This document shows positions 11,563 through 21,289 of a stretch of 64,000 nucleotides of DNA, one piece after another. Source of the DNA: Ruminiclostridium cellulolyticum H10. Lineage in GTDB: Bacteria > Bacillota > Clostridia > Acetivibrionales > DSM-1351. Position 1 is the stretch's first letter. Every line of letters starts with the position of its first letter. The position numbers were made by a program, and so were the translations under genes. The notes under the pieces are model-generated. The model ran no database searches, was not told the origin of the DNA, and saw nothing but the letters and a program-made list of their open reading frames with translations. The stretch covers positions 1,324,001 to 1,388,000 of the forward strand of contig NC_011898.1 of assembly GCF_000022065.1 (NCBI RefSeq), written 5' to 3'.

Positions 11563-12321
11563 ATGGAGACTTTATACGCAAAAACACAGGAAAAGGATAT
11601 AGCAAAATATGTTCTCTTTTCAGGTGACCCTTGGAGAGTTGAGACAGTTGCAGGCCAGTTGGAAGATGTGAAGCATATAGCCTTTGCAAGAGAATTTAAC
11701 ACCTATACAGGCTATTACAAAGGTGTTCGGATTACAGTGACATCAACAGGAATAGGTGCTCCATCGGCTGCAATTGCAATGGAGGAAATGTACCAGTGCG
11801 GCATGGAAGTAGCTGTGCGTATGGGAACAACCATGGGGTTAAAGGATGATTTGCTTGGAAAGCTAATTATTCCCACAGGTTCAATGAGAGAGGAAGCTAC
11901 CAGCAAAACTTATGTACCGGTATCTTATCCTGCGGTAGCGGACTTTGATTTAATCAATTGCATGAATAAAAGTACTTTACAAAACAACAGACAATATGTA
12001 AACGGATTATCCTGCACATTGGATGGTTTCTATAGTCAGATGAGGGATTCACGTCTTTCAGAAAAAATGCAGAGGGATATGAGTGAAACATTTACCGCTC
12101 TAAAGAAATACAATATATCGGCTGTAGATATGGAATCAAGCTGTATGCTGGTTTTAGCTAATCTAATGGGAATAAAGGCATGTATTGTTACAATGACAAC
12201 TGTTCTTGAAAATCTGAAGGATTTCTTAAAAGGAGATGCAAGAACACAATCAGAAGTTGATTTGTGCAAAATCGCAATGGATGGACTTGTTATATATCAT
12301 GAGGAGGTGGCTTCTAAATGA
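11563..12321 (+). CDS. Nucleoside phosphorylase (uridine/purine phosphorylase family)
   Basis: A 252-residue NP-I family protein. Visible are the phosphate-binding SGDP (19-22) and the RMGTT strand, and the VDMESS motif that contacts the ribose in UDP- and PNP-type enzymes. It would split a nucleoside into base and sugar 1-phosphate, with Pi as co-substrate. The start is ATG 11563, seven bases after the kinase stop. Finding both a kinase and a phosphorylase in one nucleoside operon suggests a two-step sugar route that a simple salvage operon would not need. Confidence 0.88.
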   Translation: METLYAKTQEKDIAKYVLFSGDPWRVETVAGQLEDVKHIAFAREFNTYTGYYKGVRITVTSTGIGAPSAAIAMEEMYQCGMEVAVRMGTTMGLKDDLLGKLIIPTGSMREEATSKTYVPVSYPAVADFDLINCMNKSTLQNNRQYVNGLSCTLDGFYSQMRDSRLSEKMQRDMSETFTALKKYNISAVDMESSCMLVLANLMGIKACIVTMTTVLENLKDFLKGDARTQSEVDLCKIAMDGLVIYHEEVASK

Positions 12322-13106
12322 AGGGACTAGAATTTAAGGACAAACCTATCGTAATGGGAATGGTTCATTGTCTTGCACTACCTGGAACACCTGATTTTTG
12401 CGGTGATATGAAGAAAATAACCGACCAGGCTGTAAAGGAAGCAATAACACTTGAAAAGTCAGGAATGGATGCCATTATTATTGAAAATATGGGCGATAAT
12501 GTGTTCGGAGTAAACATGGACATTGAACAGTCATGTGCTCTTGCGGCTATAAGTGCTATCGTTGCTCAAAATGTTAATATACCTATCGGTATTGATGCAG
12601 CTATGAACGATTACAAAACCGCATTATCCATTGCAAAGGCAATAGGGGCTGATTTCGTAAGAATTCCGGTTTTTGTGGATACAGTAGAATTTTTTGGAGG
12701 AATAATCCAACCTTGTGCAAGAGAGGCTATGAAGTTCAGAAAGAACATAGAAGCTGAAAACGTAAAGATATTTGCAGATATCCAGGTTAAGCACACACAC
12801 ATGGTACTACCCCATGTAAGCATTGAGGATTCTGCAAAAGCTGCTGAAGCTTGCGGTGCCGACGCCATAATCGTAACAGGTACCCACATAGGGGTTGAGA
12901 CTCCCATAGATATTATTAAGAGAGTCAAAAAAGTAATCAGTATACCTGTAATAGCCGGAAGTGGTGTAAAAACAAACAATATAAAGGAACAGCTTGGCAT
13001 TGCAGACGGTGCCATAGTAGGGTCCAGCCTGAAAGAGGGCGGAAATATAAAAAACCCTATTTCTCTGGAACTTTGTACAGAACTAATAAAAGCATTGAAT
13101 ATATAA
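12318..13106 (+). CDS. BtpA/SgcQ-family TIM-barrel protein
   Basis: A 262-residue protein of the BtpA family: GMVHCLALPGTP near the N terminus, IIIENMGD near residue 55 and a phosphate-binding-like end (VIAGSGVKTNN, then GAIVGSSLK). BtpA was first linked with photosystem I assembly and SgcQ with a sugar cluster; no enzymatic role is settled. The C-terminal glycine motifs suggest a phosphosugar or phosphonucleoside ligand. It overlaps the phosphorylase gene by ATGA, so it belongs to the same pathway. Confidence 0.85.
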   Translation: MKGLEFKDKPIVMGMVHCLALPGTPDFCGDMKKITDQAVKEAITLEKSGMDAIIIENMGDNVFGVNMDIEQSCALAAISAIVAQNVNIPIGIDAAMNDYKTALSIAKAIGADFVRIPVFVDTVEFFGGIIQPCAREAMKFRKNIEAENVKIFADIQVKHTHMVLPHVSIEDSAKAAEACGADAIIVTGTHIGVETPIDIIKRVKKVISIPVIAGSGVKTNNIKEQLGIADGAIVGSSLKEGGNIKNPISLELCTELIKALNI

Positions 13107-13130
13107 TGTAAATTTAAAATAAAGGACTGA

Positions 13131-14282
13131 ATGTATATGATGAGACCAATGAAACTTGCCGGAAGCCAGCTGATGTTTGGTGCAGGTTCACTTGCACACC
13201 TCAAGACCCTGACGGGGAAGAGGGCAGTAATAGTAACTGGCGGCTCAAGCATGAAAAAGAGCGGAATTCTGCAAAAGACCATAGATTATTTAAAGGAAGC
13301 TGGAATAGAAAGCAATGTATTTGAAGGGGTTGAGCCTGATCCACTGTTTAGTACGGTTTACAGAGGCGCAGAGGTAATGAAACAGTTCCAGCCTGATATA
13401 ATTATCGGACTAGGAGGCGGTTCTGCAATGGATGCTGCCAAGGCAATGTGGGTATATTATGAACACCCTGGGCTGACAACACTTAATGACATTGTACCAC
13501 CAAATGTAATACCAAAGCTAAGGAATAAGGCTATTCTGGTATGTATACCTTCAACCAGCGGTACAGCCAGCGAAGTCAGCCGTTCTGTGGTAATTACCGA
13601 TGACGAAACCCACATAAAGTATGGGGTAGGAAATATGGAAATGATGCCGGATATCGCAATATGCGATCCCGAGGTTACTGTTACAATGCCGGCAAAAATT
13701 ACTGCTGAAACAGGTATGGATGCATTAACTCATGCACTGGAAGCACTTGCTTCAAACAGAGCAAATTATATTAGCAATATATTCGCAAAAAACGCAGCAA
13801 AGGATATTATAGTAAATCTACCAAAAGCGTACAGCCAAGGTAATGATATTGGAAGCAGGGAAATTATGATAAATGCATCCATGGCTGCGGGAATGGCGTT
13901 TACCAATGTTTCATTGGGAATAGTTCATTCTATGGCACACACTTTGGGAAGCTTTTTTGGAATTTCACACGGACTTGCTGATGCTGTGATACTGCCCTAT
14001 GTGATGGAATTTAATTCACATAATGCTGACGCAAAGAAACTATACGATGAATTGGCAAAAGAGCTAGGTGCGGCGGATTTAGTTAATGTGGTATGCGAGC
14101 TGAATAAGTCCATCGGTATTCCAAGCCATTTTGCAGAACTCATACCGGACGAAAAGAAATATATGGATGAGCTGGACGCAATGGCAGAAATGGCTCTAAA
14201 GGACGGATGTACTAAAACAAATCCTGTTATTCCTTCAATAGAACAACTCAAGGAACTATTTATTAAAGTATATAAAGCATAA
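13131..14282 (+). CDS. Iron-containing alcohol dehydrogenase
   Basis: A 383-residue group III Fe-ADH. The NAD-binding GGGSAMDAAK lies around residues 98-107; metal-binding residues are in the DALTHALEA stretch and the two histidines around SMAHTLGSFFGISHG. ATG 13131 is four bases after AAAGGA; ATG 13137 with ten-base spacing is equally possible. In the operon it may oxidise or reduce an aldehyde made from the sugar portion. It is followed by a 164-bp gap with a structured element. Confidence 0.88.
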   Translation: MYMMRPMKLAGSQLMFGAGSLAHLKTLTGKRAVIVTGGSSMKKSGILQKTIDYLKEAGIESNVFEGVEPDPLFSTVYRGAEVMKQFQPDIIIGLGGGSAMDAAKAMWVYYEHPGLTTLNDIVPPNVIPKLRNKAILVCIPSTSGTASEVSRSVVITDDETHIKYGVGNMEMMPDIAICDPEVTVTMPAKITAETGMDALTHALEALASNRANYISNIFAKNAAKDIIVNLPKAYSQGNDIGSREIMINASMAAGMAFTNVSLGIVHSMAHTLGSFFGISHGLADAVILPYVMEFNSHNADAKKLYDELAKELGAADLVNVVCELNKSIGIPSHFAELIPDEKKYMDELDAMAEMALKDGCTKTNPVIPSIEQLKELFIKVYKA

Positions 14283-14294
14283 AAAACACTGAAG

Positions 14295-14403
14295 TTTCCC
14301 GGTTGGTATGATATTATTCTGGTGAATTCGCAGCACCACGAAGCATTTTATGTAAACTAATTAACATACTCTAAACCTCAATAATTAAGTACCACCGGGA
14401 AAA
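14295..14403 (+). ncRNA. Candidate structured RNA (three-way junction) in the operon
   Basis: A long-range helix of 12 base pairs with one bulged T closes an 83-nt loop (14295-14307 with 14391-14402). Inside are a TGGTG/CACCA hairpin (14320-14338) and a TATGT/ACATA hairpin (14349-14368). No T run follows, and the ribosome site of the next gene starts 31 bases downstream. The fold looks like a three-stem junction RNA, possibly a riboswitch or processing element before the TrpA-like gene. I do not recognise it as a known class. Confidence 0.4.
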
Positions 14404-14446
14404 CAATATAAAAAATAATTATGCCGCAAGGCTCAGGAGGCTTAAC

Positions 14447-15169
14447 GTGAAACTAATATGTTATTTATCCAACGGATACCCAACAATAGAGTCAAGCATA
14501 GAGATTGCTAAGGACTATATTGACGCAGGCTGTGATATAATCGAGGTGGATTTTCCTTCCTCTGACCCATACCTTGAAGGGGAGTATATCGCAAATAGAA
14601 TGAGAGATGCCCTTACAGTCTGCAATGATTATGACAAGTATATGGACGGAATTATTGAGATAAAGAATAGTCATCCTAATACCAAATTTATACTATTGTC
14701 ATATGAAAATACAATTCTTGAAATAGGTGTTGACCGTTTTGTAAAATTCTGCGTTGACAATGATATAATGGACCTTATCTATGTAGGAAAAGACAATCGG
14801 GAAGTAAAAAGCAAGCTGATTGACAACGGTATAAAGATATCCTGCTACGTTCAATTTCACATGGATGAAAATGAAATACGGGCAGCAGTTGAGTCAAACG
14901 GATTTGTTTATATGCAGGCTAAGCCTACTACCAATAACATTAATCCAAAATTTCCAACTCTCAAGCACTGCATAGATCACTTGAAGGGCCTTGGAATAAA
15001 AAGGGAGATATACTGCGGTGTAGGTATATACGCACCCGAAGATATAAAAATGGCTAAGGAAGCCGGAGCTGACGGTGTTTTTGTGGGAAGTACTGTATTG
15101 AAGCTTCAAACAGACATACCAAAGATGAAAGAAACAATTGCTTTATTAAAAAAGACTTGCAACGAGTAA
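14447..15169 (+). CDS. TrpA-like (tryptophan synthase alpha homologue) TIM-barrel lyase
   Basis: A 240-residue TrpA-fold protein, shorter than the usual 260-270. The catalytic Glu of TrpA is kept (IIEVDFPSSDP); the catalytic Asp position (PLADG in TrpA) reads PYLEG, so Asp is replaced by Glu. The phosphate-binding strand (GADGVFVGSTVLK) is present, but the conserved loop after the fourth strand is absent. There is no trpB nearby. GTG 14447 has CAGGAGG six bases upstream. It closes the nucleoside operon and might perform a retro-aldol cleavage releasing glyceraldehyde 3-phosphate from a phosphorylated ribosyl-like compound. That role is inference. Confidence 0.75.
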   Translation: MKLICYLSNGYPTIESSIEIAKDYIDAGCDIIEVDFPSSDPYLEGEYIANRMRDALTVCNDYDKYMDGIIEIKNSHPNTKFILLSYENTILEIGVDRFVKFCVDNDIMDLIYVGKDNREVKSKLIDNGIKISCYVQFHMDENEIRAAVESNGFVYMQAKPTTNNINPKFPTLKHCIDHLKGLGIKREIYCGVGIYAPEDIKMAKEAGADGVFVGSTVLKLQTDIPKMKETIALLKKTCNE

Positions 15170-15191: not shown

Positions 15192-15494
15192 AGGGCTGTT
15201 ACAACATTAATTTTACCTTTTAACATGTACTCAGAGTATAAATTGTATCAATGGAAGCTTGGTTAAAGATATTTGCAGTTGTTTATCGGCGAACAAGGAT
15301 GTTTTACCGGAAAACTTACACAATGTAGGTTTTAGCGAAACAATGAATCATGGATGATGAATGTGAGCGACGGTAAAAAATCATAAGCTGAGCCGCTAGA
15401 AACTCTTGCAAATATCTTGGAAGCAATCATTGATATAATTTTATACGGGAGTACCGGTGTTAAAACAGAAAAACTTTCTGTTTTGCAACAGCAC
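15192..15494 (+). mobile_element. MITE-like element, longer copy
   Basis: The ends carry imperfect inverted repeats related to GGGGCTGTTGCAAAATT (left GGGCTGTTACAACATTAA, right TTTTGCAACAGCAC). Most of its length matches, in inverted orientation, the element at 56839-57026. Relative to that copy it has about 117 extra bp (15294-15410) and decayed ends. It has no transposase gene. It lies between the TrpA-like gene and the end of the minus-strand chaperone gene. Confidence 0.7.
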
Positions 15495-15509: not shown

Positions 15510-16139
15510 TTATTTCAAGAACGACTGTATTTTTGCCTGACTTATTAAGTCTTTTATTTCCCGATCATAAAATTCAGAAAATTTAGAATTAACTTCATTG
15601 GGATCTTCCAACTTAACCTTTTTAAACTTTTGCTTTAATGCATTTTTATAAGCCCCACGTATCAAAGCTTTTTTATAAGTAGGTTTAACACTTTCCCAGT
15701 ATTCATCCTCACTCATTTTCAACCCGCTTATGTATTCCTTAAATGCTTTATATTGCTTACTGTCCATACTTATTTCTTCCCGAGCCGATTTTATAGCAGC
15801 TTCAACCTGGTGGTCAGATACGCGAAATCCCTCTTTAACAGCTTGCGTATAAACTACGTGGCTTTCAACTATTCTGTCCAATATTTCTTTATCTGACAAC
15901 TTATTTTCACTATTTATCATTGCTTTGTAAGTGTTAAAGCCTTTTTTAGTTATATTTTCACCATTAATAGTTGCAACTATGTCCTTCCCGGCTTTAGTTA
16001 ATGTCTGTGATTGCTTTATTCCAAAGAATTTTGCAGCACTCTCACTTTTTGAAAAAGTATACCCAACTATACCGAATATTAAAATAACGGCTGTAACTGC
16101 TATGATAACTACCTTTTTTCTATTATTACCATGTACCAT
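15510..16139 (-). CDS. Membrane-anchored SurA/PrsA N-terminal-like protein
   Basis: A 209-residue protein: a short basic N terminus, one transmembrane helix (about residues 9-28), then an extracytoplasmic helical domain like the chaperone part of SurA/PrsA (VATINGENITKKGF, then DRIVESHVVYTQAVKEG). No parvulin PPIase domain follows, so it is a chaperone-only member or a truncated one. ATG 16139 is used because AAAGGAG lies seven bases before it; the frame continues upstream to 16280 without a ribosome site. It stops 16 bp from the MITE. Confidence 0.75.
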   Translation of the reverse strand: MVHGNNRKKVVIIAVTAVILIFGIVGYTFSKSESAAKFFGIKQSQTLTKAGKDIVATINGENITKKGFNTYKAMINSENKLSDKEILDRIVESHVVYTQAVKEGFRVSDHQVEAAIKSAREEISMDSKQYKAFKEYISGLKMSEDEYWESVKPTYKKALIRGAYKNALKQKFKKVKLEDPNEVNSKFSEFYDREIKDLISQAKIQSFLK

Positions 16140-16354
16140 GGAAAATCTCCTTTCAACGAATGTACTAAGTTGCAAATAAAGATAGTTATTTCTATAGTAC
16201 CAGTATATTACAAAAATGTAAATGTTGAGTCTGGTGGACTCTGTTATTTGATAAAATCTACATAAAATTATAAATGGCACATAAAGGAATTAAAGTAAAA
16301 AGTGAGTTAGCAGAATAATGCTTTTATGTAGACATTTGGATTTACAAAATATGG

Positions 16355-16360
16355 TATAAT
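16355..16360 (+). promoter_or_regulatory. Extended -10 promoter before the bpsA cluster
   Basis: TATAAT (16355-16360) is preceded by TG one base upstream (TGGTATAAT), an extended -10. The -35 region is poor; TAGACA 20 bp upstream is the best candidate. It lies about 230 bp before the BpsA start and likely drives the cluster to 20.6 kb. Confidence 0.5.
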
Positions 16361-16434
16361 TCTTACTATAATTACAAACGCAAAAAGGATGTTTAGGAGG
16401 ATATTTAGCGACAGCGGAGAATATAAGTCATAGG

Positions 16435-16560
16435 ATGCTGACCCGCAATTCTAGGAACAGTATAGTAGAAGGTGTTGCCCATGGAATAATTGCAGACTAC
16501 AATATAGTTGATTATCTTATGGATAATGTTTATAATATTTTAGAGGTAAAAATTACATAA
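16435..16560 (+). CDS. Possible small protein upstream of bpsA
   Basis: A 41-codon frame starting at ATG 16435, ending in TAA 32 bp before bpsA. The same frame is open back to 16372. A perfect AGGAGG at 16395-16400 points to a start near 16405, but the in-frame codon there is TTA, not a standard start. The predicted peptide is helical and hydrophilic, with a regular look unlike random sequence. Either the gene has lost its start codon, or it begins at the weakly supported ATG. No homologue recognised. Confidence 0.3.
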   Translation: MLTRNSRNSIVEGVAHGIIADYNIVDYLMDNVYNILEVKIT

Positions 16561-16591
16561 AAAACCCTGTAGTTGGGATGAGGTGGCTGTA

Positions 16592-17767
16592 ATGCAAGAT
16601 GTGCAGGATATTGTTTTTAAAGTATATGAAAATGTACACTTGGAAGAAGGAATAGTAGTCCTCAAGAATTTCCTTGTAAATGCGTATATGTACAGGGGTA
16701 CTTCCGTAAAGGAAATGTCCCGTATGTTGAATTTACCAGTTCCTGTTGTGTCTGCGATTAAAAATGAATTTAAAAAGAATGGGATTGTAGATTTAAGCAA
16801 CGGCATAGGTTTGACAAAGAATGGAGAAATCTATGTGAAGGATGTACTGGGGTATAAAAATGCCGATACGGATGTTCTGAAGGATATTTTGGAAAATACT
16901 GGTATTGACCTTTCAAGGTTTGAAAAAGAGATTGAAGAGTTGGGAGCGATTTACCAAAACAGGCCTGAAGTCGATGTTGAGGTGGACCAATCCAAGTGTA
17001 CAGCGGAAACAGGGATGAAAAGGGCTGTACTCATGCTTAAATCAGGCTGCCTGATAGGCAAAAAAATTGCTTGTATTGGAGACGATGATTTAACAAGTAT
17101 AGCTATTGTTTTATTGTTAAAGCATATAGCAGTAAGTGACAACTTAAGCGGTATGGCGGATATTACTGTTTTTGATATAGATAAACGGATATTGTCTTAT
17201 ATAAAAAAAGTTTCCGAAGAATATAAGATAGACATAGAATGTATACAGCATGATTTATGCAATCCCATTGATAATCAGTACAAAAATAAGTTTGATTGCA
17301 TTACTACTGATCCACCGTATACATTAAACGGACTGAACCTATTTTTAAGCAGAGGTATTTCGGTTCTAAAAAAAGAATCAAATCTAAGTGTGTTTTTGTC
17401 CTTTGCACATAAAACTCCTCAGATTAGGTTTTTAATGCAGCAGTTATTTGTGAACGAAGGTTTGATTTTGTCAAATATATATCCCAAATTTAATGTTTAC
17501 GAAGGAGCACAAATACTTGGCGGTGTGAGCGACCTTATGATTCTTACCACTACTGCCCAGTATACAAAAGAATTAATTTCCGGCATATTCAGCGATGAAA
17601 TATATACCGGGAAGTTTAAACAGACAATCAGAACATATGAGTGTAAGCAATGCAGTGAGAAATATTTGGTTGGAATGAATCAGAAAATTACAACGATTGA
17701 ACAGCTTAAATCACAGGGATGTTTAAAATGCCCTGCAAATAAGTTTAATTTAATAAGAAAAGGATAG
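16592..17767 (+). CDS. bpsA: BpsA, N4-bis(aminopropyl)spermidine synthase (branched-chain polyamine synthase)
   Basis: A 391-residue member of the former DUF43 family. Residues about 1-85 are a winged-helix domain; a Rossmann-like aminopropyltransferase domain follows with signature GDDDLTS (163-169) and DPPYT (240-244); the C terminus has two CxxC-type pairs (ECKQC and CLKC) that may bind zinc. BpsA adds two aminopropyl groups from decarboxylated SAM to N4 of spermidine and is best known from hyperthermophiles such as Thermococcus. ATG 16592 has AGGTGG five bases upstream; GTG 16583 is the alternative. It is first in a run with GNAT, FkbH-like and ACP genes; speD lies 3.1 kb downstream. Confidence 0.88.
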   Translation: MQDVQDIVFKVYENVHLEEGIVVLKNFLVNAYMYRGTSVKEMSRMLNLPVPVVSAIKNEFKKNGIVDLSNGIGLTKNGEIYVKDVLGYKNADTDVLKDILENTGIDLSRFEKEIEELGAIYQNRPEVDVEVDQSKCTAETGMKRAVLMLKSGCLIGKKIACIGDDDLTSIAIVLLLKHIAVSDNLSGMADITVFDIDKRILSYIKKVSEEYKIDIECIQHDLCNPIDNQYKNKFDCITTDPPYTLNGLNLFLSRGISVLKKESNLSVFLSFAHKTPQIRFLMQQLFVNEGLILSNIYPKFNVYEGAQILGGVSDLMILTTTAQYTKELISGIFSDEIYTGKFKQTIRTYECKQCSEKYLVGMNQKITTIEQLKSQGCLKCPANKFNLIRKG

Positions 17768-17770
17768 GTT

Positions 17771-18226
17771 ATGGAAAACATTAATATAAGGCCAATAAAA
17801 GAAACAGATATACCTGTTATTGCGGAATTTGAAAAGGAGATATGCATTATTTCTTTTGGAGATACTGCGGTAACCGACCTTGATGTTCACCAAAAAAAGC
17901 TCTTAAAGAGTCATAAGAAAAATCCGGAAGGAATGTTTGTTTTAACAGTACATGAAAAAGTAGCAGGATGGCTGTGGATGGATGAGAAAATTAATTTTCT
18001 GACAAACGAAAAATATATTAATTTCCGTAGTTTTTATATAGAAAAAAATTTTCAGGGTTCAGAACTAAGTGTGAAATTAATGGAGTTTGCAATGGAATTT
18101 TGCAAAAGTGTACAAGCAAATATGGTTGTGGGTAAGGTCTATATTGACAACATATCCATGAGGGCATTGTATAAGAAGTTCGGATTCAAACCGACTCATT
18201 TGACCATGGAGTATAAATTTGACTGA
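17771..18226 (+). CDS. GNAT-family N-acetyltransferase
   Basis: A 151-residue protein with the GNAT fold: N-terminal IRPIKETDIPVIAEFEKE, a central SFYIEKNFQGSELSVKLMEF stretch at the acyl-CoA site (a poor match to Q/RxxGxG/A), and the NISMRALYKKFGFKP end motif. It starts four bases after bpsA. A polyamine or the downstream carrier-bound product are natural candidate substrates, but the sequence alone does not tell. Confidence 0.82.
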   Translation: MENINIRPIKETDIPVIAEFEKEICIISFGDTAVTDLDVHQKKLLKSHKKNPEGMFVLTVHEKVAGWLWMDEKINFLTNEKYINFRSFYIEKNFQGSELSVKLMEFAMEFCKSVQANMVVGKVYIDNISMRALYKKFGFKPTHLTMEYKFD

Positions 18227-18254
18227 ACAAACATGGATACCGGGAGTATTGCAA

Positions 18255-19289
18255 ATGATTAAGTGCATTGTTTGGGATTTGGATGATACTGTTTGGGATG
18301 GTACATTAAAATATAATTATGATGTCAAGGTCAAGGATGATATTTTAAGTACAATAAAGATGGCAGACCAACTGGGTATTATACAGACTATCGCCAGCAG
18401 AAACGATTATTCGGCTGCCATGGATAAAATAAGGGAATTGAATATAGATAAGTATTTTTTAAATCCTGAAATATCGGATAGCTCAAAAGCCGACAGTATT
18501 AAAAGAATATCCGTTCATTTCAATATAAGCCCGGACAGCATTGCGTTTGTGGATGATAATGACTTTGAGCTCTATGAAGTAAAGAGATTCTTGCCGGAAG
18601 TAATGGTCTATAATATAAAGGATATACATTTTCTGGAAGCACAAATAAAGTCCTTAGCCGATACATTTCCTTCTTTATCGAACCACAGAGAGCTAATGGA
18701 AAAGAGAGAAAAAAGGATACAGGCAGAAAAGGCATTTATCGGCACAAGGGAAGAATTTTTAAAAGAGTGCGGCATGACCCTTATAATCCGTACATTCAAA
18801 GAGAACGATCTTAACCGCGTTTTTGAATTGGTACACAGGACAAACCAAATGAATAATTTGCAGACACGATTAGATCTGGATTCTTTAAAAAAATATGGTA
18901 TGGATAAGAACAAGGCTATATTGGTTTGCGAGCTTTCTGATATTTTTGGAGAACATGGTATTGTCGGAGCAAGTCTGTTCAGCTTGAATGGCCGGAAGGC
19001 GGTTTTGGACTTATTCTGTATTTCCTGCCGTGTTGAAGGAAGGGGTATAGGAACCGCATTTCTCAACGGTGCCATGGTTAGTCTGAAAAAGTATAAATCT
19101 GATATAAGATGCTTTGAATGTAATTATGAGAAAAAAGAAAATAATAAATCCGCATACCTGCTCTTAAAGCTTCTGGGATTTGAAACAAGGGTAAAAACGG
19201 GGAAAAAGTTTTTACTTCAAATAGCTTCCGAGGAAGTCAAAGAGATGGTAATTGAATGGTTAAAAATAGTATATGGAGAGAACAAATGA
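18255..19289 (+). CDS. FkbH-like HAD-superfamily protein (HAD-IIIC plus GNAT-like domain)
   Basis: A 344-residue protein. Residues 1-130 are a HAD domain with motif I VWDLDDTVWDG (Asp8, Asp10), motif II around TIASRND and motif IV DDNDFE; residues about 150-340 are a GNAT-like domain with RTNQMN and GRGIG. This is the layout of FkbH-type enzymes, which take a C3 glyceryl unit from 1,3-bisphosphoglycerate and load it on an acyl carrier protein. ATG 18255 is chosen (GGGAGT seven bases upstream) over the TTG at 18219 inside the previous gene. Its stop overlaps the start of a stand-alone ACP, the expected partner. Confidence 0.88.
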   Translation: MIKCIVWDLDDTVWDGTLKYNYDVKVKDDILSTIKMADQLGIIQTIASRNDYSAAMDKIRELNIDKYFLNPEISDSSKADSIKRISVHFNISPDSIAFVDDNDFELYEVKRFLPEVMVYNIKDIHFLEAQIKSLADTFPSLSNHRELMEKREKRIQAEKAFIGTREEFLKECGMTLIIRTFKENDLNRVFELVHRTNQMNNLQTRLDLDSLKKYGMDKNKAILVCELSDIFGEHGIVGASLFSLNGRKAVLDLFCISCRVEGRGIGTAFLNGAMVSLKKYKSDIRCFECNYEKKENNKSAYLLLKLLGFETRVKTGKKFLLQIASEEVKEMVIEWLKIVYGENK

Positions 19290-19537
19290 AGGAACAAATA
19301 TACAATCAGGTCTGTGAAATACTAGAAGAAGTAATTGAAAAAAAGAAAAATATAATTGATGAAAATACAGTTCTGCTCGGACAGGGTGGAATTATGGATT
19401 CTTTAACAATTACCCGGTTTATTAATAAAGTAGAGAGTAAATTTCAAGTAGATATAATCGAAGAGGACTTGGAACTGAAATGCCTGGAAACCGTAGGCAG
19501 CTTGACTGAATTTTTGTATGATGGCGGGAATAAATGA
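19286..19537 (+). CDS. Acyl carrier protein (stand-alone)
   Basis: An 83-residue ACP. The phosphopantetheine attachment site is the serine of the GGIMDSL motif, followed by the usual helix II (TITRFINKVESKF). It overlaps the FkbH-like gene (ATGA) with GGAGAG five bases before ATG 19286. It is not next to fatty-acid genes, so it is most likely the dedicated carrier for the FkbH product. Confidence 0.9.
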   Translation: MKEQIYNQVCEILEEVIEKKKNIIDENTVLLGQGGIMDSLTITRFINKVESKFQVDIIEEDLELKCLETVGSLTEFLYDGGNK

Positions 19538-19600
19538 ATTTAGTATTAACCTTACTGGAGGCATCCATGCTCAATTATAATTATATATGGAGAAATTAGC

Positions 19601-20614
19601 ATGAAAACTTATTTAATAACAGGTGGAGCAGGATTCATAGGTTCTAATTTTATCAGGTATATGTTAAAAAATTATAATGACATTTTTATAATTAATGTAG
19701 ACAAGCTCACTTATGCAGGCAACCTAGACAATTTAACAGGAGCTCCGATTAATGATACAAACTATAAGTTTTGCTGCTGTGATATTTGCGACAAAGATAA
19801 AATAGAAGAGATATTTAAACTACATAAAATTGATTATGTAGTTAATTTTGCCGCAGAGAGCCACGTAGACCGCTCCATGACCAACACAAAGGAATTTATC
19901 GAAACCAATATAACGGGAACCGTCAACTTGATGAATGCTGCGAAGAAAGCATGGGAAATCAGAGAGGATGAATATATCAATGGGGTCAAGTTTCTTCAAA
20001 TATCAACAGATGAGGTGTATGGTTCTTGTACTGAATGTTGTTCAGAAGAATCTCCTTTGAACCCACATAACCCCTATTCTTGCAGCAAGGCGGCTGCTGA
20101 TTTTTATGTCAAATTCTATTGGGATGCCTACAAGTTCCCTGTCAGTATTACACGAAGCTCAAACAATTACGGCCCATACCAATATCCGGAGAAGCTTATT
20201 CCGCTGATGATACATAATACAATAGAGAACCTCATGCTTCCGGTATATGGTGACGGTATGCAAATGAGGGATTGGATATATGTTGAAGACAATTGCAGAG
20301 CAATAGATCTGGTTTTACATAAGGGCGAACAAGGTGAAATTTACAATATAGCTACAGAGAAAAAATATCATAACCGTTTTGTTGTAGATAAGATTTTGAC
20401 TTATATAAAAGGGGAAGTGCGTGAGGACATGATTCTTCATGTGCGGGATAGAAAGGCATCAGACCTTTGCTACAGTATCAGTACTAAAAAGATCCGGGAG
20501 AAACTGGGGTGGAGTCCATCCGTGAATTTCGATAATGGACTTGACAAAACAATACAGTGGTACCTGGATAACAAAGATTGGATGGACAGGTCCCTAATGA
20601 CAAATATCTTGTAA
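19601..20614 (+). CDS. dTDP-glucose 4,6-dehydratase-like SDR enzyme
   Basis: A 337-residue extended short-chain dehydrogenase close to RfbB. NAD motif GGAGFIGSNF (residues 8-17); STDEVYGS carries the catalytic Asp-Glu pair; the YSCSK motif has the active Tyr and Lys. It would convert dTDP-glucose to the 4-keto-6-deoxy sugar. No other dTDP-sugar genes are near, so a related NDP-sugar substrate is possible. It follows the ACP by 63 bp and is probably cotranscribed, giving the cluster a sugar component. Confidence 0.88.
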   Translation: MKTYLITGGAGFIGSNFIRYMLKNYNDIFIINVDKLTYAGNLDNLTGAPINDTNYKFCCCDICDKDKIEEIFKLHKIDYVVNFAAESHVDRSMTNTKEFIETNITGTVNLMNAAKKAWEIREDEYINGVKFLQISTDEVYGSCTECCSEESPLNPHNPYSCSKAAADFYVKFYWDAYKFPVSITRSSNNYGPYQYPEKLIPLMIHNTIENLMLPVYGDGMQMRDWIYVEDNCRAIDLVLHKGEQGEIYNIATEKKYHNRFVVDKILTYIKGEVREDMILHVRDRKASDLCYSISTKKIREKLGWSPSVNFDNGLDKTIQWYLDNKDWMDRSLMTNIL

Positions 20615-20869: not shown

Positions 20870-21289
20870 GTGAGGCCAAAAAGCAACTGCTTGGTTGAAG
20901 CCAAAGAAGAACAATATAAATTTATAGGAACACATATATTGGGGGATCTATACGGAATATCCAACGAAAAATTGGAGAATATAGATTTCCTTGAAAAGGT
21001 AGTTACGGATGGTATAATGAAAGCCAATGCATCATGTCATGGAATTCAAGTTAAGAAGTTTAATACAGGGGGAATTACCTTGATAGCACTATTGGCTGAG
21101 TCTCATGTTTCGGTTCATACGTACCCCGAATACAATTCAACATTTATAGATGCATTTACTTGCGGTGAACACTGCAATCCGCAGTTAATTATTGATACAA
21201 TTGTAGAAGGGCTGAAACCGCAAAAAGTTATTATCAACCAAGTAAGGCGAGGAAAAAATAAACGGATACGCTATATTAAATCTGATTAA
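20870..21289 (+). CDS. speD: S-adenosylmethionine decarboxylase proenzyme
   Basis: A 139-residue prokaryotic class 1 AdoMetDC. It self-cleaves between Glu77 and Ser78 in AESHVSVHTYPE to make the pyruvoyl group; His83 and Cys98 (AFTCG) match other conserved active-site residues. It supplies decarboxylated SAM, the aminopropyl donor for BpsA encoded upstream. The start is GTG 20870 with AAGGAG nine bases upstream. No speE (spermidine synthase) is in the window. Confidence 0.93.
   Translation: MRPKSNCLVEAKEEQYKFIGTHILGDLYGISNEKLENIDFLEKVVTDGIMKANASCHGIQVKKFNTGGITLIALLAESHVSVHTYPEYNSTFIDAFTCGEHCNPQLIIDTIVEGLKPQKVIINQVRRGKNKRIRYIKSD

Follow-up and report, generated by a model that had tools for sequence, protein, structure and literature searches.

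Branched-chain polyamine synthases of the BpsA family have been characterized from Thermococcus and Thermus, and in the T. kodakarensis enzyme a C-terminal cluster of acidic residues acts as the aminopropyl carrier (PMC12979288). For FkbH proteins, the accepted proposal in the tetronate and methoxymalonyl pathways is that they form glyceryl-ACP together with an acyl carrier protein (ACP), and there is precedent for separate glyceryl-ACP pools within one cluster (PMC7489565). Polyamine N-acetyltransferases of the GNAT fold include DpA, with Y128 as its catalytic tyrosine, as well as SSAT, PaiA and SpeG (PMC10267138). Here we describe a locus in Ruminiclostridium cellulolyticum H10 where members of these families are encoded together. 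By the window we mean the whole stretch of 64,000 nucleotides that was analyzed, i.e. positions 1,324,001-1,388,000 of the single-contig genome of 4,068,724 bp. In it, a bpsA gene, a GNAT gene, an fkbH gene and an ACP gene lie head to tail on the plus strand (16592-19537), and all of their open reading frames (ORFs) are intact. The enzyme families are each known, while the literature searched yielded no account of their combination, spread or fusions. No paper mentioning FkbH together with polyamine was retrieved, nor any glyceryl-polyamine phrase, which is weak evidence given that most subscription papers were outside the search. A review on BpsA and branched-chain polyamines contains no mention of "Clostridi-", Paenibacillus or a gene cluster.

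A sequence-only reading of this DNA had proposed that the four genes, together with rfbB, form one tightly packed cluster linking a branched polyamine to a glyceryl or acyl carrier. All five genes are indeed present, with family matches and intact ORFs on the plus strand, and the close packing was confirmed for the first four: bpsA and GNAT are separated by 3 nt, GNAT and fkbH by 31 nt when fkbH begins at ATG 18258, and fkbH and ACP overlap by 4 nt. ORF calling places the start of fkbH at TTG 18219, where it overlaps GNAT; the orthologues begin at the equivalent of ATG 18258. The rfbB gene is found 3' of the four core genes, 63 nt downstream of ACP, and speD another 255 nt further on. The sequence-only reading, whose interval ends before speD, had missed that gene. 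Ahead of bpsA there is a leader of about 240 bp (from 16355), holding the relic of a truncated ORF.

The four-gene cassette bpsA-GNAT-fkbH-ACP recurs far beyond this genome. Within the genus, bpsA was found in two of 11 genomes, in both with the orthologous fkbH adjoining it, and within the order in four of 58 genomes, all four of which have the cassette. Scanning a collection of named genomes with the single BpsA sequence of the window gave no matches, while a search built on an alignment found 47 bpsA loci in named genomes. Out of the resulting 49 loci (these 47, the window and its Ruminiclostridium relative G005), 18 carry the cassette, counting the window, with ACP placed ahead of fkbH in two of them. 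They are distributed over two Ruminiclostridium, an uncultured Clostridia bacterium (E19 bin24), Acetivibrio alkalicellulosi, Herbivorax, eleven Paenibacillus and two genomes labelled Eubacteriaceae and Roseburia. An additional split copy occurs in the metagenome-assembled genome (MAG) G012, where GNAT-fkbH-ACP and bpsA lie at different contig ends. When 391 genomes of the class were searched with the GNAT, five matches of at least 100 bits were obtained, all in bpsA-positive genomes, and the next match scored 36 bits; the co-occurrence of cassette-type GNAT and bpsA has a hypergeometric value of 2.8e-10, phylogeny being ignored. Pairwise distances of BpsA, GNAT and FkbH across the cassettes are also correlated (0.98, or 0.92-0.95 on eight representatives). 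The sequence-only reading had named a lack of co-conservation of bpsA with the fkbH-ACP pair in other genomes as grounds for refutation; this refutation fails, the pairing being conserved over distant lineages.

Fusions add to this picture. In Herbivorax, bpsA and GNAT form a single ORF of 553 aa, and in Paenibacillus J2TS4 fkbH and ACP are likewise one ORF. At the locus L082, bpsA and speD are joined in a single ORF, as confirmed by Pfam, and L078 shares this layout. In both of these the ACP precedes an FkbH of a longer type (in L082 519 aa, 239.8 bits), which is not orthologous to that of the cassette, which suggests that an FkbH function was acquired independently next to the same bpsA, GNAT and ACP. 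Stand-alone bpsA genes are frequently paired with speD (e.g. in Tissierella, Metaclostridioides and Clostridium mobile), and a true speE lies immediately downstream of the ACP in Acetivibrio alkalicellulosi. Two further arrangements were seen: a 520-aa ORF spanning bpsA and speD in a cassette-less locus of Enterococcus larvae (L088:9953-11515), and stand-alone bpsA upstream of a 711-aa protein, which is DNA topoisomerase III in L073, in the Paenibacillus loci L073, L067 and L077.

The linkage of bpsA, GNAT, fkbH and ACP is thus shown, as are their co-inheritance, order, fusions, catalytic motifs and family membership, and that these four make up one functional unit is in our judgement nearly certain. 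The notion that they are unrelated neighbors, for which the bpsA loci without the cassette could be cited, is refuted for the core genes by the order conserved across lineages, the fusions, the correlated distances and the co-occurrence; it has virtually no likelihood left except for rfbB, where it holds. Together with speD, the four genes constitute a portable biosynthetic sub-cluster. Mapping the cassette onto the BpsA tree requires at least five state changes, three of them forced by well supported branches, so the cassette was moved or lost repeatedly and a single origin is not supported; long branches make the detail of these gains and losses unsure. P. solani and P. sp. EZ-K15 each have one cassette bpsA and one stand-alone bpsA, situated on different branches of the tree.

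Table 1. Genes and other features at the bpsA locus, in positions of the window.
Feature	Product or proposed role	Position	Strand	Basis
bpsA	BpsA-family aminopropyltransferase, 391 aa	16592..17767	+	GDDD and DPPY motifs, C-terminal four-Cys ribbon; PF01861; phmmer; alignments
GNAT	N-acyltransferase, 151 aa; proposed acyl-ACP:polyamine N-acyltransferase	17771..18226	+	PF00583; structure model; Foldseek; non-canonical CoA P-loop
fkbH	HAD phosphatase plus GNAT-like domain, 343 aa; proposed glyceryl-S-ACP synthase	18258..19289	+	TIGR01686; fold; invariant residues
ACP	Dedicated acyl carrier, 83 aa	19286..19537	+	PF00550, 30.8 bits; Ser of GGIMDSL as phosphopantetheine site; overlap with fkbH; orthologues
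rfbB	dTDP-glucose 4,6-dehydratase; resident neighbor outside the cassette	19601..20614	+	TIGR01181, 415 bits (cut-off 365)
speD	S-adenosylmethionine decarboxylase; supplies the aminopropyl donor	20870..21289	+	TIGR03330, 114.6 bits (cut-off 75.65)
Relic of truncated ORF upstream of bpsA	3-dehydroquinate-synthase-C-like in G005	16400..16560	+	86% DNA identity to G005 at 16482-16559; translation; PF24621 in G005

The BpsA protein matches PF01861 (BpsA_C) with 160.3 bits against a cut-off of 27, and T. kodakarensis BpsA (5xnc) with a phmmer value of 9.9e-25. The GDDD motif (G163-D164-D165-D166) is invariant in six aligned sequences. Residues were mapped through one HMMER alignment, with the numbering offset set from GDDD, and by this mapping the cassette enzymes keep the family, the GDDD motif, the Asp of DPP (Asp225) and Tyr290 of the archaeal enzyme. 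In contrast, Lys or Thr stands at the position of Glu259, and where the archaeal enzyme has its acidic, aminopropyl-carrying tail there is a four-Cys ribbon (CxxC...CxxC). The setting differs as well, since the cassette enzymes belong to mesophilic Firmicutes and are encoded in an operon with GNAT, fkbH and ACP. The ribbon and the same replacements occur throughout this BpsA clade, with or without the cassette, which rules out the ribbon as an adaptation to it; the acidic cluster described for the archaeal enzyme may not define the BpsA family. As for the aminopropyl supply, among the 11 genomes of the genus speD occurs only in the two with bpsA. No SpeE above the cut-off was found in the genome, although this cut-off is strict and was passed by only four of 14 control genomes. 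This points to BpsA as the obvious consumer of decarboxylated S-adenosylmethionine (SAM); the fusion to speD and the gene neighborhood bear indirectly on a putative transfer of aminopropyl groups from this donor to linear polyamines.

FkbH scores 171.8 bits with TIGR01686, above the curated cut-off of 146.65. Its residues 1-138 adopt a HAD fold (3slr, Z 19.4, 1.7 Å over 136 residues) and residues 173-326 form a GNAT-like domain. In an alignment of 17 cassette FkbH sequences and one paralogue, D7, D9, S47, K77 and C257 are invariant in all 18 and D99 is kept in 17. Like the methoxymalonyl, hydroxymalonyl and tetronate systems (PMC7489565), the cassette thus has an FkbH domain above the cut-off, intact HAD residues and an adjoining stand-alone ACP. 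Unlike the malonyl-type operons it has polyamine genes where these have dehydrogenases, and no FabH-like enzyme is found in the locus of the window. Without dehydrogenases the product should stay at glyceryl-ACP, and it is on the whole quite likely that FkbH makes this compound. Two more FkbH-like regions were noted in the same genome (G000:C1:1217387-1218331, L023, and 2724274-2725215, L017), one being a stand-alone gene with 36% identity and the other lying inside an open frame of 2758 codons.

The GNAT protein matches PF00583 and gave a structure model with a pLDDT (predicted local distance difference test) of 93.9. In Foldseek, the polyamine acetyltransferase DpA took ranks 1-4, with SSATs also listed. 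The comparison with DpA yielded a VIA Z of 19.2 (2.6 Å over 147 residues), other GNATs down to 18.3 being tied with it, and the profile also matches diamine/spermidine N-acetyltransferases and PaiA. The cassette GNATs share this similarity in fold and profile with DpA, SSAT, PaiA and SpeG (PMC10267138). At the position judged from sequence to be equivalent to that of the catalytic Tyr, 17 of 19 have Tyr and two have Trp. The cassette GNATs differ from these enzymes in their CoA P-loop, (Q/R)xxGx(G/A), which is not kept: the Gly at position 4 is missing in all 19 and an acidic residue is found there in seven. A further difference lies in their genes, which adjoin an ACP gene and accompany bpsA, in one case as a fusion with it. 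Such a P-loop suggests, but is no proof of, a donor other than free acetyl-CoA. In our judgement the GNAT probably acylates a polyamine, and the ACP is a slightly favored candidate for its acyl donor. The idea of the sequence-only reading that a branched polyamine is linked to a C3 unit from FkbH and ACP is strongly supported by the co-conservation, the fusions, the distance correlations of 0.92-0.98 and the structural match of the GNAT.

The fifth gene of the original proposal has a different history. Orthologues of rfbB with 84-87% identity are found in three congeners that lack bpsA. In G007 and G006 rfbB is on the same chromosomal stretch, directly past the conserved upstream genes and with no cassette in between. 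Outside the genus, rfbB was not found beside bpsA in the cassette loci, and no RmlA above the cut-off was detected in the genome. Consequently, rfbB was ruled out as a cassette member, and the claim that the tight layout is not due to chance stands for the first four genes, known from 18 loci, and was not confirmed for rfbB. Either the cassette entered next to a resident rfbB, the older occupant of the site, or it was deleted from that position. In G005 the pieces of the locus are collinear with those of the window but spread over about 36 kb, i.e. bpsA-GNAT, fkbH-ACP, rfbB 17 kb later, and speD. The intervening genes encode radical-SAM enzymes (two with B12-binding domains), a KASIII-like protein, two further ACPs, glycosyltransferases, a BtrH-like protein, a PIG-L deacetylase, an AMP ligase, a nucleotidyltransferase, an epimerase and what we read as a DegT-like aminotransferase. 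The relic ORF upstream of bpsA is shorter in the window than in G005, which makes a deletion in the lineage of the window likely, at least upstream of bpsA, and the locus seems to be a reduced version of a larger cluster.

Further upstream, a SurA-like gene on the minus strand (15510-16280), part of which aligns next to rfbB in the cassette-less G007, and in whose position G005 has other genes, is a boundary marker of the insertion or deletion. It is preceded on the plus strand by a run of nucleoside-phosphorylase-like, BtpA/SgcQ-like, iron-alcohol-dehydrogenase and TrpA-like genes (11563-15169), with about 90% identity within the genus, that make up a putative catabolic operon. Between the TrpA-like and SurA-like genes (15264-15420, plus strand) there is a match to the TwoAYGGAY RNA that stays below the threshold (33.8 bits, with the gathering score at 43; E 0.019).

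No polyketide synthase (PKS) or nonribosomal peptide synthetase (NRPS) gene accompanies the cassette in the window, as the sequence-only reading had stated, but this does not extend to other genomes: at ten Paenibacillus loci the cassette is found directly behind PKS-NRPS genes, with the domains AT-KR-ACP, and KS-AT-ACP-C with an embedded FkbH domain and a carrier after it. In P. profundus (L096-L098) the cassette ends an NRPS-PKS cluster spanning about 45 kb, in which there are two FkbH genes, the embedded FkbH domain and a beta-lactamase-like protein. A set in this cluster, consisting of a hydroxyacyl-CoA-dehydrogenase-like protein, FkbH, a small presumed ACP (no family match) and an acyl-CoA-dehydrogenase-like protein, reads as a putative hydroxymalonyl-ACP operon. 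In G005 (C1:3838000-3877999; L142, L022) a cluster of about 30 kb includes bpsA, speD, fkbH, three ACPs, radical-SAM, BtrH-like and PIG-L deacetylase genes together with dehydroquinase, DegT-like aminotransferase and sugar genes, and from this gene content looks like an undescribed butirosin-like pathway. The BtrH, PIG-L and radical-SAM genes are points of likeness to butirosin-type clusters, and the hydroxymalonyl-ACP set of the Paenibacillus clusters to zwittermicin-type ones. The described clusters of either type are not known to contain bpsA.

Taken as a pathway, SpeD would decarboxylate SAM and BpsA would transfer aminopropyl groups from the product onto a polyamine to give a branched polyamine, while FkbH would dephosphorylate 1,3-bisphosphoglycerate and load the D-glyceryl unit onto the dedicated ACP. 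The GNAT would then move the acyl group from the ACP, and not from acetyl-CoA, onto an amine of the polyamine, yielding a glyceramide, the N-glyceryl branched polyamine. At stand-alone loci such as that of the window the pathway may stop at this compound; in Paenibacillus and G005 it would serve as a building block or end cap for something larger, of NRPS-PKS or aminoglycoside-like kind. A glycolipid or surface polymer, as also suggested earlier, finds no backing in the minimal loci, where polymer-assembly genes do not recur. We put the full pathway at close to an even chance, as high as this because its steps support one another; this and all other gradings are matters of judgement and not of computation. 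Several points weigh against it. At 31 of the 49 bpsA loci there is no cassette, so bpsA has other roles too. The degenerate P-loop does not prove use of the ACP, and other GNAT folds come within 1 Z of DpA in the model comparison. A BpsA lacking the acidic tail and Glu259 may have another acceptor than the T. kodakarensis enzyme, and a locus that seems reduced may today make a partial or different product. The chemistry is inferred at every stage, as are the nature of the C3 unit, the amine that accepts it and the reliance of the GNAT on the ACP.

If the GNAT were instead an ordinary acetyl-CoA-dependent polyamine N-acetyltransferase that caps or protects the branched polyamine, the glyceryl-ACP would be left to another enzyme, e.g. 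a C domain or KASIII in the large clusters and an unlinked one elsewhere. Its nearest relatives DpA, SSAT, SpeG and PaiA all use acetyl-CoA, most of the cassette sequences have Tyr at the position judged equivalent to the catalytic one, and PamZ-type N-acetyltransferases provide self-resistance in a related polyamine antibiotic (PMC9054821). Still, with the P-loop motif not kept and no other enzyme able to use glyceryl-ACP in the minimal loci, this falls on the unlikely side. We consider it somewhat less probable again that BpsA aminopropylates another amine than a free polyamine, such as an aminosugar, an amino acid or a carrier-bound intermediate, with an aminopropylated C3 unit as the outcome. 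The replaced acceptor-side Glu259 and acidic tail, the lack of SpeE above the cut-off and the embedding of the G005 cassette in an aminoglycoside-like cluster would fit such a role. However, stand-alone BpsA of the same clade share the replacements, the GNAT resembles polyamine acyltransferases, and a true speE adjoins the A. alkalicellulosi cassette.

The genes might also be leftovers of a large G005-like cluster that make nothing on their own, as the collinearity with the G005 region, the shortened relic ORF and the presence of rfbB without RmlA could indicate. Against this, the retained genes are all intact, with a ratio of nonsynonymous to synonymous substitution rates (dN/dS) of 0.07-0.13 at dS 0.7-1.1, and this minimal gene set is found by itself in Acetivibrio, Herbivorax, Paenibacillus J2TS4 and MAGs, which makes a minimal pathway likelier than a dead remnant; rfbB, moreover, was at the site before the cassette. 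This makes the leftover explanation decidedly improbable. Returning to the N-glyceryl branched polyamine, a new product class is a reasonable prospect. In its most complete form, that of a Firmicutes class of branched polyamines N-acylated with glycerate via a carrier, produced by a portable cassette of four or five genes with the GNAT as acyl-ACP:polyamine transferase and plugged into NRPS-PKS and aminoglycoside-like pathways, the proposal is tentative, and we hold it to be somewhat less than evenly likely.

For the BpsA family, the finding means that the synthase is here part of a recurring specialized-metabolite cassette in Firmicutes (Paenibacillus, Ruminiclostridium), next to a dedicated glyceryl carrier. 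The cassette also offers a testable case of polyamine acylation by a GNAT whose acyl donor would be a carrier protein. Should the product prove to be a glyceryl branched polyamine, it would represent a new antibiotic building block, and the bpsA-GNAT-fkbH-ACP signature would then provide a genome-mining handle for cryptic clusters.

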